In this document: one piece after another, positions 1-6,338 of the stretch
Numbering within the stretch: position 1 is the stretch's first letter
Layout: every line of letters begins with the position of its first letter
Source: Pseudomonadota bacterium
GTDB taxonomy: Bacteria; Pseudomonadota; Alphaproteobacteria; Acetobacterales; Acetobacteraceae
DNA length: 7,748 bases
Reading direction: 5' to 3'
Assembly: GCA_021828605.1 (NCBI GenBank)
Contig: JAJZEG010000146.1
Coordinates: 1 to 7,748 of the forward strand
Program-made: the position numbers and the translations under genes
The notes under the pieces: model-generated
What the model was told of the DNA's origin: nothing
Databases searched by the model: none
Seen by the model: the letters and a program-made list of their open reading frames with translations, nothing else

Positions 1-1902
1 GATCTGCATGAGCACGTATCCCAAAACATGATCGGCAGAGGCAAAAATCGGATCAGCGCGGATTTGCACTGGGGTTGACGCGCCATTGGCGCGGCGGAGT
101 GCGCTTTCGCAGCGCCAACCGAGCTGGAATTTTTGTAGCGAGTGCAATCGCTCAACCAGCAATTTGGGTTCGCTGAATAATGCGGGCAGATCAACGAGAT
201 TGCCCGTTTGTTGGTTTGTTTCGCCAATCAGCTGCGAGCACGCTTGGTTGATCAGAAGAATATCGCCCGCGACATCGGTGATGATCACCGATTGGCTTGA
301 AGCACCAACATCCTCACGGAGCTGATCGAGTTGATCATGGGCGATCAGGAGGCGCACCGAGGACGATTGCAGGACCACATCACTGACCATGCAGCCAATA
401 ACCCGTGCCGCCGCGATGTCAGCCTCGGTCCAAGGTTGTGACTGCTGACGCATCACCTGTTGCCATTGTGCAAAGGATCGACGCGGCGATAGATCGGTCG
501 GATGATCGCCAATGATCATTGGTTTTGTCGGGTCGCCGCCCCACGTAATGGTCTGAACTTCTTCAGGTCGAACCCAAATCAGATAGGCCCCCGGCGATGC
601 GGTGATTCTGACGGCGAGAACGCCGCTGGCGATGGCGGCGATCACAGCGAGCGATTCACGCGCGGCGCCTAGTCGATCAGTTGCAACCGGCTCGCCGCTG
701 AGGCATTCGGTATCGGTGTGGGAGTCGAGCCACGCGGCAATTGCGCGAATATCTTGAGTGGCGGGAACATCACCGCAGGTGGTGGCTTCGCCCTCATACA
801 TCAGAGCCACGCCCGTAGCACGGGTGGGGTGCAAAAGCGCTTGGGGATTGTCGAATAATGCGTTTCGCCAGCGCCCATCGCGGGTAAGCGCCTCGGCCAT
901 CCGTTGTTCCAGCCGGCGCGCGGAGAGTTCGGCTTGCGCGGCTGCGAAGCTTTGTAGGGCGGCAATACGGGTTGCAATGGCTTCAGCGAGCAGTTCGCAG
1001 GCCGCACGGACTTTGAATGGCACGAAATAAGGCGCGTAATGGTGACACGCAATCAAGCCCCAAAGTCGCCCCTCGATCACCAGCGACATCACCAGGGTGG
1101 CACGCACCCCCATGTTTTTAAGGTATTGGTTATGAATGGGTGACGAGGCACGCAAGACGCAGAGCGACATGTCGAGCGGGGCATCGCTCATCGGCGAAAG
1201 TGCTGGCTCGAGTTTGACCGGCTCAAAATTCACATCGACGAGCAGGCGAACCCGATGGCGCAAATACAGGCGCCGCGCGATCTGAGGGATGTCAGACGCA
1301 GGATAGCGGTTGCCAAGATAAGGCTCTAAGCCGCGCTCGCATTGTTCGGCGAAAACCTGGCCGTGACCTTCCTGATCGAATTGATAGACCATCACCCGGT
1401 CATAGCCGGTGAGAGTTTTCACGAAGCGCGCAGCTTCGTCCGCGAGATTGCGGAGAGCCACGCTAACTAAAATGCTTTGAAGCGCAGATTCGAGTTGGGC
1501 GGCGATCACGGGCTGATCAGAGTTGTCCGTGAGGGGTTCTAATTCGATCAGCAACCCACCGCCAGCCGGGCGGTGGATCAATGCCTGCAGCATGTCGCGT
1601 CGTCGACCGAGTGTGCCGCGCAGGGCCAGAGGTTGATCGTCAAGCGGTTGAGTTAAAAGCGGGATCAGCGCCGCCGGGAGGCTACCGTCGAGAGAGGCGA
1701 GCGGCTGACCGGGGCGGGCATCGGCACCGCCGAGGAAATGGGCGGCGTTGGCGCTGATTTGCGCAATGATCAGGTCAGGTTCGCTGAGAAGGAGTAGGGC
1801 ACCATGTGGTTGGATGGCGCCCGCATATTGGATTTGTTCACGCTCGCAATTCGATAGATCAGCCGTTCCGAAAGCCGGGGTGGGTGAAATGTTGACTGTC
1901 AT
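1..1902 (-). CDS. bphP: Bacteriophytochrome (PAS-GAF-PHY-PAS), 3' end cut off by the window
   Basis: This is a red/far-red photoreceptor that binds biliverdin. The open frame runs from ATG at 1902 to base 1 without a stop, giving 634 visible residues. A Shine-Dalgarno-like AGGGA lies about 12 bases upstream of the start. The N-terminal PAS region carries Cys19 in the context NCERE, the expected biliverdin attachment site, followed by IQPHG (30-34). The GAF domain has PASDIP (201-206, Asp204), His257 in PIHNQYLKNMGV and His287 in CHHY, matching the chromophore-pocket Asp and His residues of Deinococcus BphP. The PHY tongue is visible as WGG (454-456) and PRRSF (473-477). A further PAS domain follows at about 520-634. 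The output domain lies outside the window: a histidine kinase or a PpsR-interacting module are both possible. It follows ppsR on the same strand after 66 bases, so co-transcription is likely. Whether its dark state is Pr or Pfr cannot be read from the sequence. Confidence 0.96.
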   Translation of the reverse strand, partial: MTVNISPTPAFGTADLSNCEREQIQYAGAIQPHGALLLLSEPDLIIAQISANAAHFLGGADARPGQPLASLDGSLPAALIPLLTQPLDDQPLALRGTLGRRRDMLQALIHRPAGGGLLIELEPLTDNSDQPVIAAQLESALQSILVSVALRNLADEAARFVKTLTGYDRVMVYQFDQEGHGQVFAEQCERGLEPYLGNRYPASDIPQIARRLYLRHRVRLLVDVNFEPVKLEPALSPMSDAPLDMSLCVLRASSPIHNQYLKNMGVRATLVMSLVIEGRLWGLIACHHYAPYFVPFKVRAACELLAEAIATRIAALQSFAAAQAELSARRLEQRMAEALTRDGRWRNALFDNPQALLHPTRATGVALMYEGEATTCGDVPATQDIRAIAAWLDSHTDTECLSGEPVATDRLGAARESLAVIAAIASGVLAVRITASPGAYLIWVRPEEVQTITWGGDPTKPMIIGDHPTDLSPRRSFAQWQQVMRQQSQPWTEADIAAARVIGCMVSDVVLQSSSVRLLIAHDQLDQLREDVGASSQSVIITDVAGDILLINQACSQLIGETNQQTGNLVDLPALFSEPKLLVERLHSLQKFQLGWRCESALRRANGASTPVQIRADPIFASADHVLGYVLMQI

Positions 1903-1968
1903 GAGCGAAATCTTCCCTGCCGCCGCCGAGACAACCGACGCTGCATTTGTGATGGGGGCCGTTCAATT
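1903..1968 (-). other. ppsR-bphP intergenic spacer
   Basis: The 66 bases between the ppsR stop and the bphP start contain the bphP ribosome-binding site (AGGGA, about 1912-1916) but no convincing promoter, no TGT-N12-ACA site and no terminator hairpin with a T-run. This supports read-through from ppsR into bphP. Confidence 0.5.
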
Positions 1969-3285
1969 TTATTTAAGACCGTAGCGTAACATTTTCATAT
2001 AGAGGCTTTGGCGACTTAGTCCGACGGCAGCCGCCGCGGCTTTGCGGTTCCCCGCCGAGTCGCTGAGCGCTTCGGTAATATAATGGCGTTCGATAATGGC
2101 TGTCATCGTATCGACCGCTTGGGGCAGGCTCGCGTGATCAGTCGTGGAGCGCCACGATTCGAGCGCGGTGCGGATCGTGTCGTCGAAGGTGGCGCCGCAT
2201 GGGTTGGCGACGCGACGGCTGACGTCACGGATCATCAGGCCGATCAAATGCCCGTCAGTGCCGGCTGAGATTTCCACCGTCGTTGCGCCGCCATGCTCGC
2301 CTTGCAGCGTAACCGATAGCATTTTCAGATTGCCATGGCTGCGGATCAGGTCAAGCAGTGTGGCTAAGCCAGGCCCGCCGTTATGAAGCCAACGATCAAG
2401 CCGCGTGCCCAGCACCAATTCCGCACTCCCGGCCTCAACCAGATCGAGAAATGCTAGGTTCGCTTCAACAATCACGCCATCCCGATCAATGATAACGAAA
2501 CCATCGGGTAGTTTTTTGATCAGCGGCGAGCAGACCGGGCGGTGAGGTGCACTCGCTGGGCGACCCGTGATTCCAGCTTCGGTCAGGTAGAGCAAATAGC
2601 TTGGCGCATCGATCGTTTCGACGGCGGCGGTGCGCACAATCCAGGCACGACGCTCCTCGCCCAGATGGAGAATAATACTGGGTGCATGGCCATACTCGCG
2701 CGCGCGGTCCATCATTGCGAGGAACGGTGCCCGATCTGCGGCAGTGATTTCGTTCAGAAAATTCCAACTCGGGCCGATGCCAAATGTCCGGTTCGCGGCG
2801 GGGTTTGCATCGATAATACGCAATGTATCGACCTCGATCAGGAGCACCGGATCGATTGCCGCGTTAAATATAACGTTATAGCGGGTTTCAACCTCCCGCA
2901 ATTTCCAGTGATTTTGCTCCATGGCGCGCTGGGTGGCCAGCAAGCGCGATTCCAATTCGGACACGACGTGATATTGTCGGCCAATGACAATCAATCCTCG
3001 ATCCTCGCCGAGGCTTACCGCCGTATATTCCAGAGGAATTTCAAGGCCGCTCGGAAAACGTTGGTTGATCGGAGTAAAGGCAGAAACACCCGTGGTTTGT
3101 GCATCGAGCACCATCAGGCGTAATTTTTCCAGCGCTGATTGGGCGACGGTTTCAGTCCATCGACGCCCATGCCAGGGGCGCAATGTCTCGCTGGCGATCC
3201 GCTCGGAGACGATCGCATTCTGGATGATGCCATCCCGATCAAGTCGGATGGTAACATCAGGCTGCGCGAGATTGACGATACTCAT
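1969..3285 (-). CDS. ppsR: PpsR/CrtJ-type transcriptional repressor of photosynthesis genes
   Basis: PpsR represses bacteriochlorophyll, carotenoid and light-harvesting genes under oxygen or in darkness, usually at TGT-N12-ACA sites. The 438-residue product is slightly shorter than Rhodobacter PpsR/CrtJ (about 465). The order visible is an N-terminal PAS-like domain (about 8-105), a Q-linker helix with LLATQRAMEQNHWKLRE (115-131), PAS1 (about 135-235), PAS2 (about 258-355) and a Fis-type helix-turn-helix with GNRKAAAAAVGLSRQSLY (412-429), ending at RYGLK. Its cysteines are Cys252 and Cys363. Cys252 is close by number to the redox Cys251 of R. sphaeroides PpsR, but the region just before the helix-turn-helix reads IERHYITEAL, so the second redox cysteine (Cys424 there) appears to be missing. 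The next gene on the strand is bphP, which suggests phytochrome control of the PpsR2 type known in Bradyrhizobium and Rhodopseudomonas. The start has no recognisable Shine-Dalgarno sequence; ATG 3285 is preferred because the following residues match the usual PpsR N-terminus. Confidence 0.93.
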   Translation of the reverse strand: MSIVNLAQPDVTIRLDRDGIIQNAIVSERIASETLRPWHGRRWTETVAQSALEKLRLMVLDAQTTGVSAFTPINQRFPSGLEIPLEYTAVSLGEDRGLIVIGRQYHVVSELESRLLATQRAMEQNHWKLREVETRYNVIFNAAIDPVLLIEVDTLRIIDANPAANRTFGIGPSWNFLNEITAADRAPFLAMMDRAREYGHAPSIILHLGEERRAWIVRTAAVETIDAPSYLLYLTEAGITGRPASAPHRPVCSPLIKKLPDGFVIIDRDGVIVEANLAFLDLVEAGSAELVLGTRLDRWLHNGGPGLATLLDLIRSHGNLKMLSVTLQGEHGGATTVEISAGTDGHLIGLMIRDVSRRVANPCGATFDDTIRTALESWRSTTDHASLPQAVDTMTAIIERHYITEALSDSAGNRKAAAAAVGLSRQSLYMKMLRYGLK

Positions 3286-3286
3286 G

Positions 3287-3302
3287 ACTAGAACAATCTA
3301 GT
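3287..3302. repeat. Perfect inverted repeat next to the ppsR start codon
   Basis: ACTAGA (3287-3292) and TCTAGT (3297-3302) are exact reverse complements separated by ACAA. The repeat begins one base upstream of the ppsR ATG, so it could be an operator or form a small hairpin in the ppsR 5' leader. What binds it is unknown. Confidence 0.7.
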
Positions 3303-3317
3303 ATTTTTAGTAAAATA
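3302..3317. repeat. AT-only inverted repeat in the ppsR/heme oxygenase control region
   Basis: TATTTT (3302-3307) and AAAATA (3312-3317) are exact reverse complements around TAGT. It shares one base with the preceding repeat. It overlaps the -10 candidate TAAAAT at 3311-3316, so it may be a promoter element or an operator; the AT richness makes chance symmetry possible. Confidence 0.5.
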
Positions 3318-3359
3318 GCAAATAACTTGACGTTTCCCGGGGCAATTTATGGAAATCGC

Positions 3360-4022
3360 ATGGCCAATAATGCTGCCCTAGATCCACCTGTTGTTCGCTT
3401 CGCGGATCGGCTGAAAGCGGCGACGGCTCAAATGCATGTCGAAGCCGAGCGAGGCGGCGCTGTGGCATTATTGCTGCGTGGAGCCCTATCGCGCGAGGTT
3501 TATGCCCTGTTCCTGGCGAATTTATTGCCGACCTATGAAGCGATTGAGCGCGGGCTGTTACAGTGGCGTGGTTTGCCAGCCTTGCAGCCGATTGCGCACA
3601 GTTCGGTCTTTCGCGCAAAGATGTTGCGAGCCGATTTAATTGCGCTGGCTGGCCCGGAATGGACAAAACGATTGAAGCTGCTTGGCGCGGGACGCGATTA
3701 TGCCGGGCGAATCGAGGAAATCACGCGAGATGATCCAAAATTGCTGCTAGCGCATGCTTATGTGCGCTATTTGGGTGATTTGAATGGGGGCCAGACATTG
3801 GCAAAGCGCCTTGCCGTGAGTTTGGCCCTAGGGCCTGAAGCGTTAGGATTTTATCGGTTCGATCTGATCACCGATATTGCGGCCTTTCGACGCACCTATC
3901 GGCTCGGATTTGATCAAGCCGGTTTGACTCCAACGCAGGAAGATAACGTGATTACCGAAGCGCGCTTGGCATTTCGGCTGAATATCGCGATTTCAGAGGC
4001 GGTTATCGAGGTTAATATTTGA
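3360..4022 (+). CDS. hmuO: Biliverdin-producing heme oxygenase (BphO/HmuO type)
   Basis: Heme oxygenase opens heme to biliverdin IX-alpha, iron and CO using oxygen and reductant in the cytoplasm. Biliverdin is the chromophore of the bacteriophytochrome encoded nearby, which makes chromophore supply the most likely role; iron recovery from heme is less likely because no heme uptake genes are seen. The 220-residue product has the expected size. His26 in the helix TAQMHVEAE is the probable proximal heme ligand. The family signature AHAYVRYLGDLNGGQ (131-145) forms the distal helix, with Gly139, Asp140, Gly143 and Gly144; Asp140 matches the catalytic Asp of human HO-1. The ATG at 3360 is chosen over an upstream TTG at 3327 because GGAA lies five bases before it and the family N-terminus fits. 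It is divergent from ppsR and ends nine bases from the convergent amidase gene. Confidence 0.95.
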   Translation: MANNAALDPPVVRFADRLKAATAQMHVEAERGGAVALLLRGALSREVYALFLANLLPTYEAIERGLLQWRGLPALQPIAHSSVFRAKMLRADLIALAGPEWTKRLKLLGAGRDYAGRIEEITRDDPKLLLAHAYVRYLGDLNGGQTLAKRLAVSLALGPEALGFYRFDLITDIAAFRRTYRLGFDQAGLTPTQEDNVITEARLAFRLNIAISEAVIEVNI

Positions 4023-4031
4023 CCGTTAGCC

Positions 4032-4712
4032 TCAGGCAGCAAACAGCGCAGCGACACGCGCTGCTTGCGTAACGGTGGCCGGATCGGGTTGGCCGGTACA
4101 GTGCGCGGGCAAAAAGCGACGTTGGAAAGCCAAAAGCCGCGCTTCGAGAGGTGCATCGGGGTTATAGCCGATGAGTGATAAGGTGGTATTTAGGTCGCAG
4201 GCAGGCGATTCAGCGGTCGTTTTGGCGGGCCAAAAGCCGATGCCTTGAGTTGCCAGACGTTGCCAGGGGAATAATTCGCCGGGATCATTTTTTCGGGTCG
4301 GCGCGATATCTGAGTGGCCGACAATGTTTCGCCCAGGGATCGGATGGCGGGTGAGTAGCGCACGGCAAAGCGTGATAACGGCGATGATTTGTGGTTCGGC
4401 AAACGCGTGATAGCCATGCTCATGGCCAGGATTGCTGATTTCGACCCCGATTGACCGATCATTCAGGTTGGACACACCGCGCCAGTAACTTACGCCCGCA
4501 TGCCAAGCCCGATCAGTTTCGCGAACCAGTTCTTCAATTTTCCCTTTTTCATCAATAAGGTAATGGGCAGAAACTTTGGAACGCGGGTCGCACAGGCGGC
4601 AACGCGCGGCGGCGTGACTAATCATTCCGGTATAATGCAGGACCAAATGATCGATCAGGGCGTCGGCGGGGCGTTGGTCGAAATTAGGTGAGGGATTGTC
4701 AGGGCGACGCAT
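4032..4712 (-). CDS. N-acetylmuramoyl-L-alanine amidase (Amidase_2, AmpD/AmiD family) with a C-terminal peptidoglycan-binding-like region
   Basis: This zinc enzyme cleaves the bond between N-acetylmuramic acid and the stem peptide of peptidoglycan or its recycled fragments. In the 226-residue product, His26 (LVLHYTG), His133 (VGHSDIAP) and Asp143 (RKNDPG) are the expected zinc ligands; the ten-residue spacing of the last two equals that in AmpD. Glu91 (GVEISNPG) and Lys141 are probable catalytic residues. A region at about 174-222 with the helical pattern LLAFQRRFLPAHCTG resembles the PG_binding_1 domain found in AmiD. There is no signal peptide or lipobox, which favours a cytoplasmic recycling role like AmpD, whereas the extra domain recalls AmiD. 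The ATG at 4712 is chosen because upstream residues in this frame are non-family sequence overlapping djlA. The start overlaps the djlA end by 14 bases, suggesting translational coupling. Confidence 0.9.
   Translation of the reverse strand: MRRPDNPSPNFDQRPADALIDHLVLHYTGMISHAAARCRLCDPRSKVSAHYLIDEKGKIEELVRETDRAWHAGVSYWRGVSNLNDRSIGVEISNPGHEHGYHAFAEPQIIAVITLCRALLTRHPIPGRNIVGHSDIAPTRKNDPGELFPWQRLATQGIGFWPAKTTAESPACDLNTTLSLIGYNPDAPLEARLLAFQRRFLPAHCTGQPDPATVTQAARVAALFAA
4039..4068. terminator. Hairpin at the convergent junction, possible bidirectional terminator without a U-tract
   Basis: GCAA-A-CAGCGC pairs with GCGCTG-C-TTGC around an eight-base loop, giving ten base pairs interrupted by one A/C mismatch. 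It begins 17 bases after the heme oxygenase stop and lies within the last codons of the amidase gene on the other strand. No T-run follows on either side, so it is not a classical intrinsic terminator; it may protect mRNA 3' ends or help separate the two convergent transcripts. Confidence 0.4.
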
Positions 4713-5475
4713 GATCGCGTTTGATCCGGTCATAGGCGGCATTGATCCGCGCGACGCGCTCGGTGGCGCGGGCGATGAACTCGGCGGGGACACCGCGCGA
4801 GGCCAGCTGGTCGGGATGGTTGTCGCGCATGAGCTGTTTCCAATGGGTGCGGATATCCTCAAATGGCGCATTGGGCTCGACACCGAGGACGCTATAAGCA
4901 TCCTCCTCATCGAGGGCGAGCCGCGAGAGGCTGGCGGCACGGTCGCGCTCCAGCGCGTTTAGACCGAATAATACACCAATGCGGGTCAGCATATCGGTCT
5001 CGCGGCCATTGATCGGCCCATCCGCTCGAGCGATTGCGTAAAGCGCCGCAAGCACCTGTTCAAGCGTCGCCCGGTTATCGGCGAAGGTGGCGGCCAACTG
5101 GCGGGCAAATGGCTCAAAACCGTTGGCATCGCTTCTGGCGTGATCAAATAACTGGCCGATGGTGGGAACCGCAGCATCATCAATGCGGAATTGACGCCGA
5201 AACGCCTCGATTTCAGCACGAGTGACCGTGCCGTCGCATTTGGCGAGCTTGGCCGCGAGAACGGTGACGGCGATCGCAAATACCTGCTCGGGCCGACCGA
5301 TCAAAGCGGCGAGGCGTGCGCTGTCCAAGGGTAGTGCGCGCCCGAGGCGGGCGCCGATCTGACCCAAATTACCTTGATCGGCAGCGTGGCCGACCGCGAG
5401 GCCAGCCATGGCACCGACGGGGCCGCCGACCATAAAGCCCGCTGTGCCACCGATGATTTTACCCCACAAACCCAT
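4699..5475 (-). CDS. djlA: DjlA-like membrane-anchored co-chaperone (TerB-like domain plus J domain)
   Basis: J-domain proteins stimulate the ATPase of DnaK; the DjlA type is tethered to the inner membrane. The 258-residue product starts with a glycine-rich hydrophobic segment (about 7-30, GGTAGFMVGGPVGAMAGLAV) that resembles the DjlA N-terminal membrane anchor. A TerB-like helical domain follows (about 62-185), including the acidic repeat-like parts AKCDGTVTRAEIEAF and ARADGPINGRE. The J domain occupies about 192-255, with YSVLGVEPNA and the essential HPD at 220-222. It lies 45 bases downstream of lexA and overlaps the amidase gene at its 3' end, so lexA-djlA-amidase probably form one transcription unit. 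The Shine-Dalgarno sequence is weak (AAGCG close to the ATG). The exact clients in this host are unknown. Confidence 0.9.
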   Translation of the reverse strand: MGLWGKIIGGTAGFMVGGPVGAMAGLAVGHAADQGNLGQIGARLGRALPLDSARLAALIGRPEQVFAIAVTVLAAKLAKCDGTVTRAEIEAFRRQFRIDDAAVPTIGQLFDHARSDANGFEPFARQLAATFADNRATLEQVLAALYAIARADGPINGRETDMLTRIGVLFGLNALERDRAASLSRLALDEEDAYSVLGVEPNAPFEDIRTHWKQLMRDNHPDQLASRGVPAEFIARATERVARINAAYDRIKRDHASP

Positions 5476-5520: not shown

Positions 5521-6279
5521 CTAATATCGCCGCAATAGACCGACGAGACGCCCCTGGACTTTAACGCGTTCAGCCGGGACGATGCGGGTTTCGTAGCGGG
5601 TGTTTGCGGGTTCGAGCGCGATGGAGTTGCCGCGTCGGCGCAGGCGTTTAAGCGTGACCTCACCATCATCGATCAAGGCGACGACGATTTGGCCGCCTTC
5701 GGCGGTGTCACCCTTGCGAATAATGGCGGTGTCGCCATCAAAAATGCCGGCCTCAATCATGGAGTCACCCACGACTTCGAGGGCGTAATGCTCACCCGGG
5801 CCGATGAGTGCAGCGGGAACCGCGATTTCGGCATGGGCTTCGCGCAAGGCTTCGATCGGTTGGCCAGCGGCGATGCGACCATAGAGAGGCAGGGTGATGG
5901 CTGCGGCTTCGGCGGCAGCATGGGCACCGGTGAATCGGCTGGAAAAATCGCCATGAATGACGTTATGGGTAAAAGGCGGCGGGGTCATTGGCGCGAAGGC
6001 AAAGCGGGAGGGCGCCGAGCGCATCGTTTGTTCCAGCTCAATGGGACGAGATTGCGGCATGGTATCGGAGGGGAGGCGGATGACTTCGAGGGCACGGGCC
6101 CGGTGACGGTGACGACGGAGGAAGCCGCGCTCCTCAAGGGCGCCAATCAGCCGATGAATCCCGGATTTGGATTTCAGGCCAATCGCTTCCTTCATCTCCT
6201 CAAAACTGGGGGAACAACCGGTTCGGTGGAGATGTTGATCGATGAATTCGAGCAGATCATGTTGCTTTTGCGTGAGCAT
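5521..6279 (-). CDS. lexA: LexA, SOS response repressor and self-cleaving serine protease
   Basis: LexA represses DNA-repair genes and cleaves itself when RecA filaments form on damaged DNA. The 252-residue product begins with a winged helix domain (1-70; [13 protein letters not shown], then [18 protein letters not shown]). A long proline-rich linker (about 70-128) accounts for its size above the about 202 residues of E. coli LexA and is common in alphaproteobacteria. The S24 peptidase domain shows the cleavage site Ala138-Gly139 (GRIAAGQP), catalytic Ser173 (GDSMIEAG) and Lys211 (EVTLKRL). The ATG at 6279 has GAAGG about eight bases upstream. The region in front holds candidate LexA boxes, consistent with autoregulation. 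djlA and the amidase gene follow on the same strand. Confidence 0.97.
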
Positions 6280-6302
6280 GGGTAACCTTCATGGGATCAA
6301 AA

Positions 6303-6330
6303 CTAGAACAAAACGACAACGATGTTCTAG
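6303..6330. repeat. 28-base perfect dyad in front of lexA
   Basis: CTAGAACA (6303-6310) and TGTTCTAG (6323-6330) are exact eight-base reverse complements separated by 12 bases. Each arm contains a GAAC/GTTC half-site, the core of alphaproteobacterial LexA boxes, so the dyad probably organises two LexA dimers or a single extended operator in the lexA promoter. Confidence 0.75.
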
Positions 6331-6338
6331 ATATGTTT
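6306..6338. promoter_or_regulatory. Two candidate LexA boxes (SOS boxes) upstream of lexA
   Basis: Alphaproteobacterial LexA recognises GTTC-N7-GTTC. Two near-matches, each with seven of eight conserved bases, occur here: GAAC-N7-CAAC (6306-6320) and GTTC-N7-GTTT (6324-6338). They lie 27-59 bases upstream of the lexA start, where autoregulatory operators are expected. The second overlaps the candidate -10 element. Confidence 0.65.

Follow-up and report, generated by a model that had tools for sequence, protein, structure and literature searches.

In Rhodopseudomonas palustris, far-red light induces a complex between the bacteriophytochrome RpBphP1 and the repressor PpsR2. RpBphP1 has a PAS9-HOS layout, and its HOS helices are required for PpsR2 binding in far-red light (PMC6899989). 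In Bradyrhizobium, bphP and ppsR2 lie within the photosynthesis gene cluster (PMC10569730, PMC7656271, PMC3899966), and strain ORS278 has neighbouring tags for a putative heme oxygenase, BRADO2007, and for a putative bacteriophytochrome, BRADO2008 (PMC3899966). Here we analyse a block of the same kind, consisting of a bacteriophytochrome gene (bphP), a repressor gene (ppsR) and a heme oxygenase gene, on contig JAJZEG010000146.1 of an Acetobacteraceae bacterium (GenBank assembly GCA_021828605.1). The whole stretch of 7,748 nucleotides is called the window. We consider it very probable that the block is one of the known PpsR2-BphP1 switches and lets far-red light control photosynthesis genes.

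Read from left to right, the window carries bphP, ppsR, a 74-bp gap and the heme oxygenase gene, followed by ampD, a TerB-DnaJ gene, lexA, an OmpA-domain gene and a frame of 141 amino acids. The ppsR and bphP genes lie on the same strand with a gap of 66 bp, the start codons of ppsR and the oxygenase gene face each other across the 74 bp, and all three frames are open within the window. Gene names are based on Pfam and NCBIfam matches; none of the eight window proteins scanned in this way matched a bch, crt or puf family, and the eighth matched nothing. The first-pass annotation, made from the sequence alone, had described bphP, ppsR and a divergent heme oxygenase in one block, an oxygenase sharing the ppsR control region, adjacent lexA-region genes and a window devoid of bch, crt and puf, and all of this is borne out.

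The ppsR product (438 amino acids) reaches 348.1 bits against TIGR02040 (PpsR-CrtJ), for which the curated cut-off is 275.4. Its best solved relative, 4hh2, is the PpsR of R. sphaeroides (PMC6899989). For comparison we used the best 80 of 360 loci from one scan of GTDB species genomes. In a tree of these 80 loci and the window against 11 PpsR1 proteins encoded beside bchG or ppaA, 81 PpsR2 sequences, the window protein among them, split from the 11 PpsR1 with a Shimodaira-Hasegawa-like approximate likelihood ratio (SH-aLRT) of 100; this tree was made by a quick method and carries long-branch warnings for L006, L034, and L066 with L074. The only cysteines of the window PpsR are residues 252 and 363, neither of them in the helix-turn-helix (HTH), where a Tyr stands at the position of a Cys in the PpsR1 of L102 and L104 and of a Ser in other PpsR1, including those of the relative G001 and of Acidiphilium sp. 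PA. The HTH Cys is usually missing from PpsR2 (PMC6899989). Because the window PpsR has no such residue, its redox control through that Cys appears unlikely.

The part of BphP inside the window comprises 634 residues, and about 88 C-terminal residues lie beyond the edge, as compared with a public protein of 722 amino acids (P0241) that agrees with the window BphP except for the last two window residues. These two are encoded at positions 1-6, and the deviation may be strain variation or a contig-end artefact. BphP matches PF08446, PF01590 and PF00360, with PF13426 below its cut-off; its 345 bits against the NCBIfam BphP equivalog model are far below the cut-off of 1040, which we take to mean a different BphP subtype. 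The best solved relative is 4gw9 (E = 5e-201 over residues 5-632), which is RpBphP1 without its HOS domain (PMC6899989). No kinase family is listed by Pfam for the full 722 residues of P0241, and its predicted structure places helices at 637-663, 667-691 and 699-721 after a PAS-like domain that spans about 538-635 (mean predicted local distance difference test score, pLDDT, 78.8; predicted template modelling score 0.70; pLDDT below 50 at 1-21, 398-401, 455-481, 517-524 and 661-664). Judged on this near-identical full copy, the model fits a type 3 BphP with PAS9, C-terminal HOS-like helices and no kinase. Across 32 aligned sequences there is no variation at Cys19, D204-I205-P206, His257, His287 and S472-F477; we take these residues, the N-terminal Cys included, to be the known biliverdin-binding and motif positions of phytochromes. 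A ppsR2-bphP1 pair, as the first-pass annotation had named it, is thus upheld by the PpsR2 clade, by the bphP gene directly after ppsR and by the type-3 layout of P0241.

The heme oxygenase has 220 amino acids, counted from an ATG at 3360 (the scan was given 3363-4022). It matches human heme oxygenase-1 (HO-1) and 32 other chains among solved structures, and aligns with human HO-1 from residue 13, across the His of the TKEVH segment and the GDLxGGQ segment, presumably the proximal His and the GDxxGGQ motif of heme oxygenases. A BLAST search with the window protein found an oxygenase adjoining the module in 47 of the 80 loci (13 divergent from ppsR, 30 convergent after bphP and 4 in tandem after bphP). 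A Pfam search of 24 genomes gave weaker oxygenase matches in genomes of BLAST-negative loci, and a hidden Markov model (HMM) made from the L011 oxygenase added 22 loci, all with the gene just after bphP on the same strand (that of L042 is a fragment at a contig end). Together, 69 of 80 loci have an oxygenase next to the module, and three arrangements occur among them; BLAST and the HMM found none in the other 11 (L009, L012, L016, L052, L059, L064, L071 and the contig-cut L065, L072, L075 and L078). Accordingly, a dedicated oxygenase peculiar to this block, as first proposed, was an overstatement, the divergent gene being one of the three arrangements.

Since the 22 same-strand oxygenases are not matched by BLAST with the window protein and have low Pfam scores, they apparently form a second subfamily. 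They include those of L008, L010, L011, L014, L015 and L019, from Roseomonas-type and other Acetobacteraceae, and the module-adjacent ones among those listed reach only about 21-48 bits with PF01126, in some cases as separate pieces. The window oxygenase groups with those of Acidiphilium (SH-aLRT 93 for six rows, 97 for the three nearest), and on a tree of 48 canonical oxygenases the arrangement changes five times. In the two nearest relatives, G001 and G002, which as metagenome-assembled genomes (MAGs) may be incomplete, the module oxygenase is the sole PF01126 match, and for this reason it is probably the source of biliverdin.

Compared with the systems of R. palustris and photosynthetic Bradyrhizobium, the block has the same gene pair order, a type-3 BphP with PAS9 and C-terminal helices, a PpsR2 without the HTH Cys, a nearby heme oxygenase and, here in relatives of the window, a second PpsR1. 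In loci of that type (e.g. L054, L061 and L073) the module is embedded among photosynthesis genes and a convergent oxygenase gene comes after bphP, whereas in the window it lies by lexA, the oxygenase is divergent from ppsR, and no PpsR-type site (TGT-N12-ACA) precedes ppsR2. The block belongs to the known ppsR2-bphP1 far-red switch and is modestly unusual in its place away from photosynthesis genes and its lack of a PpsR site before ppsR2. The bphO-bphP pairs of Pseudomonas and Deinococcus likewise keep an oxygenase with its phytochrome, and those phytochromes are histidine kinases. The same holds for the phytochrome of the Gemmatimonas BphO/BphP pair (PMC7844134); unlike the window, none of these three has a named PpsR partner. 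In the accessible part of the literature searched, with most subscription journals outside the search, we found neither a description of a phytochrome-PpsR2 pair in Acidiphilium nor a paper that treats ppsR, hmuO and bphP together.

We propose that the heme oxygenase would convert heme to biliverdin, which would bind BphP at Cys19. In the dark, BphP, probably in the far-red-absorbing form (Pfr), would be inert, and PpsR2 would repress bch/crt operons at TGT-N12-ACA sites, its targets being photosynthesis genes at another place in the chromosome. Far-red light would convert BphP to the red-absorbing form (Pr), the C-terminal HOS helices of which would bind PpsR2, and repression would be lifted. 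A second regulator, PpsR1, encoded among the photosynthesis genes, would work beside PpsR2. The dark state, the BphP-PpsR2 binding, the sign of regulation and the photosynthesis genes of the window organism itself are the parts of this scheme that we infer.

What we observed directly are the identities of the genes, their domain architecture, the place of PpsR in the PpsR2 clade, the conserved gene pair, and the photosynthesis genes and PpsR-type sites of the nearest relatives. The pairing is kept in 78 of the 80 loci, with bphP as the next gene after ppsR2 and on its strand (of the remaining two, L072 breaks off at ppsR and L052 has no recognised bphP). In the fetched flanks, photosynthesis genes of at least three kinds are present in 47/80 loci and at least one gene, a loose test, in 63/80; the 17 loci with none include several short contigs. 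These calls required at least 40% identity to Roseobacter references, with seven paralogue-prone kinds left out. By PpsR identity the closest of the 80 loci are L001 (MAG ZJ5.bin18, 78%) and L002 (Acidiphilium sp. 37-60-79, 79%), which have the same order OmpA-lexA-djlA-ampD-oxygenase-ppsR-bphP and the same lexA neighbourhood as the window. They differ from it between ampD and the oxygenase gene, where L001 has a methyltransferase gene (L001:8388-9242) and L002 an unscanned frame of similar size. Because a divergent oxygenase before ppsR2 recurs in 13/80 loci, in these two by the same lexA genes, the arrangement of the block is not due to chance.

Locus L004 of Acidiphilium sp. PA resembles the window in its divergent oxygenase-ppsR2-bphP order, its oxygenase group and the absence of TGT-N12-ACA within 300 bp before ppsR2, but its module follows crtB at a distance of about 1 kb, where the photosynthesis genes end (L125). 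On the simplest reading, the module left its place at the photosynthesis genes in the window lineage, the direction of this change being deduced. Acidiphilium sp. PA carries a further copy of the module, L003 (PpsR 88%, BphP 93% and oxygenase 84% identical to those of L004), on a 9.6-kb contig near a phage-type integrase gene, which suggests that the module is mobile.

Of 16 selected relatives, 15 carry reaction-centre genes. The remaining one, the MAG G006, has bchG and bchP on the contig of the module, next to it. PpsR scored above its cut-off in 18 of 18 genomes tested. G001 and G002 have their second PpsR (PpsR1) next to bchG and bchP, and their bch, crt and puf genes lie on contigs other than that of the module, in support of the earlier suggestion that the regulon lies elsewhere on the chromosome. 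Co-occurrence was followed in 150 genomes from the family of G002 (two draws, taken as the same 150 because their listed handles agree), with a PpsR2-type match defined as at least 40% identity and at least 302 bits. PpsR2-type proteins occur in 20 genomes, reaction-centre genes in 52 and both in 18; reaction-centre genes are thus present in 18/20 genomes with PpsR2 vs. 34/130 others (Fisher p = 6e-8, indicative only, as the genomes are related and p is uncorrected for kinship). A partial match in G056, a reaction-centre genome (42%, residues 7-250, 199 bits), was left out of the 20. With any PpsR match at 1e-30, 53 of the 150 genomes are found, 51 of them with reaction-centre genes.

Of 79 loci (one of the 80 was dropped for short upstream DNA), 47 have a TGT-N12-ACA site before ppsR2, as compared with a mean of 3.6 and a largest value of 10 in shuffles, and other spacings from 4 to 20 occur in at most 10 loci each. 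Within 300 bp before ppsR2 it is absent from L001, L002, L003, L004 and L006. Relatives were scanned in seven of nine fetched stretches (L119 and L121 were left out). Both G001 and G002 have one site 112 bp from the bchF match, on its start side, one between crtD and crtE, and two before bchC with 8 bp between them. Other matches lie in bchZ (two in G002, one in G001), in bchP and bchL (one each, G001) and 821 bp beyond crtC (G002). Acidiphilium sp. PA has one site by bchF, and seven others in bchL, bchH (two), ppsR1 and bphP or kilobases from recognised genes (two). The search for TGT-N12-ACA advised at the outset gave sites by bchF, crtD/crtE and bchC in the nearest relatives and none in the window.

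Several points weigh against a far-red switch for photosynthesis genes. The window contains no TGT-N12-ACA at all (0.84 expected by chance), and in relatives many matches fall inside genes or away from known promoters. The bphP gene is cut at the window edge, with its last two residues unlike P0241. Photosynthesis genes are seen in relatives only, those of the window organism being presumed. Two genomes, G006 and G135 (by coordinates, the latter appears to be the MAG of L042), have PpsR2 and no reaction-centre genes detected, and G036 has reaction-centre genes and no PpsR match. Moreover, a ppsR on a Thiodictyon plasmid, 43% identical to that of the window, has no bphP annotated after it.

Could the pair have been re-wired, after leaving the photosynthesis genes, to another regulon such as stress genes? 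The module stands away from bch, crt and puf in the window, L001 and L002, and it has no PpsR site of its own. However, photosynthesis genes with PpsR-type sites are still present in the closest relatives that share this neighbourhood, genomes of the family that carry PpsR2 tend also to carry reaction-centre genes, and no exact TGT-N12-ACA is found near lexA, djlA or ampD in the window. We consider re-wiring very unlikely, and the earlier remark that the regulon might be something other than photosynthesis is not supported, given the reaction-centre genes in 18 of the 20 PpsR2 genomes.

Many bacteria use heme oxygenases to recycle heme iron, and the window enzyme shares no PpsR site with ppsR, as might be expected if it served mainly this purpose and stood beside ppsR by happenstance. 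The presence of an oxygenase next to the module in 69/80 loci, apparently from two subfamilies, and the status of the module oxygenase as sole PF01126 match in the possibly incomplete G001 and G002 speak against this, and we give the idea very little credence. Least probable is a decayed or silent relic: the distance to photosynthesis genes and the missing self-regulatory site would agree with decay, but the three frames are open, key BphP residues are kept, and order and neighbourhood persist in L001 and L002 at 78-79% PpsR identity. Each of the three is less likely than a far-red switch acting on remote photosynthesis genes.

For the history of this far-red switch we offer a tentative scenario, in which we place somewhat less than even trust. 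In one Acidiphilium-type lineage the switch would have moved away from the photosynthesis genes and shed the site for its own control by PpsR. A two-way promoter, perhaps with the GATTG block described below, would then set PpsR2, BphP and the biliverdin supply in place of PpsR. More widely, ppsR2-bphP1 modules would have taken up heme oxygenase at least twice, from two subfamilies and in three arrangements.

These results add Acidiphilium-type bacteria to Rhodopseudomonas and Bradyrhizobium, in which the PpsR2-BphP1 switch has been studied, and they indicate that the chromophore enzyme usually travels with the switch. Modules that keep or lack the PpsR self-control site provide natural variants for comparison, and the BphP and PpsR2 described here are relatives of far-red parts used in optogenetics.

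Table. Coordinates of the switch genes and their neighbours in the window.
Feature	Position	Strand	Remarks
bphP (bphP1 type), PAS-GAF-PHY-PAS9 bacteriophytochrome	1..1902	-	cut by window edge
ppsR2, PAS-PAS-HTH repressor of the PpsR/CrtJ family	1969..3285	-	TIGR02040
Control region, 74 bp, common to ppsR and heme oxygenase	3286..3359	.	partly conserved with Acidiphilium relatives near ppsR start
Heme oxygenase, presumed biliverdin maker for BphP	3360..4022	+	PF01126 1e-49
AmpD-like amidase	4032..4733	-	PF01510; start codon uncertain
TerB-DnaJ protein, DjlA-like	4699..5475	-	PF05099, PF00226
LexA	5521..6279	-	TIGR00498 171 bits, cut-off 111

Past lexA, the OmpA-domain gene and the unnamed frame are both on the minus strand. 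With one mismatch allowed, TGT-N12-ACA does not occur in 3286-3359 and occurs 17 times elsewhere in the window (19.9 expected). No sigma-70 promoter was found at 3150-4120 (0.9 expected), and a search for RNA families gave no match. Directly before the ppsR start, window positions 3286-3310 and L001-L004 and L006 have in common a short block with invariant AAA, GATTG and C, which reads TGATTGA in the five relatives and AGATTGT in the window.

We saw no indication of a plasmid origin of the window: of ten plasmid records with a PpsR, nine are only 25-32% identical and one, that of Thiodictyon, 43%. On this plasmid, pTs485 (L128), ppsR (138678-140057) follows bchP and, unlike nearly all chromosomal relatives, lacks an annotated bphP.

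LexA control of ppsR was considered and rejected: GTTC-N7-GTTC with at most one mismatch is in excess in the window, with 14 matches (5.5 expected), but none of them falls in 3286-3359. Three one-mismatch matches stand just before the lexA start (6295-6338) and are overlapped by an inverted repeat at 6303-6330, CTAGAACA-N12-TGTTCTAG; they are possibly a site for LexA self-control.

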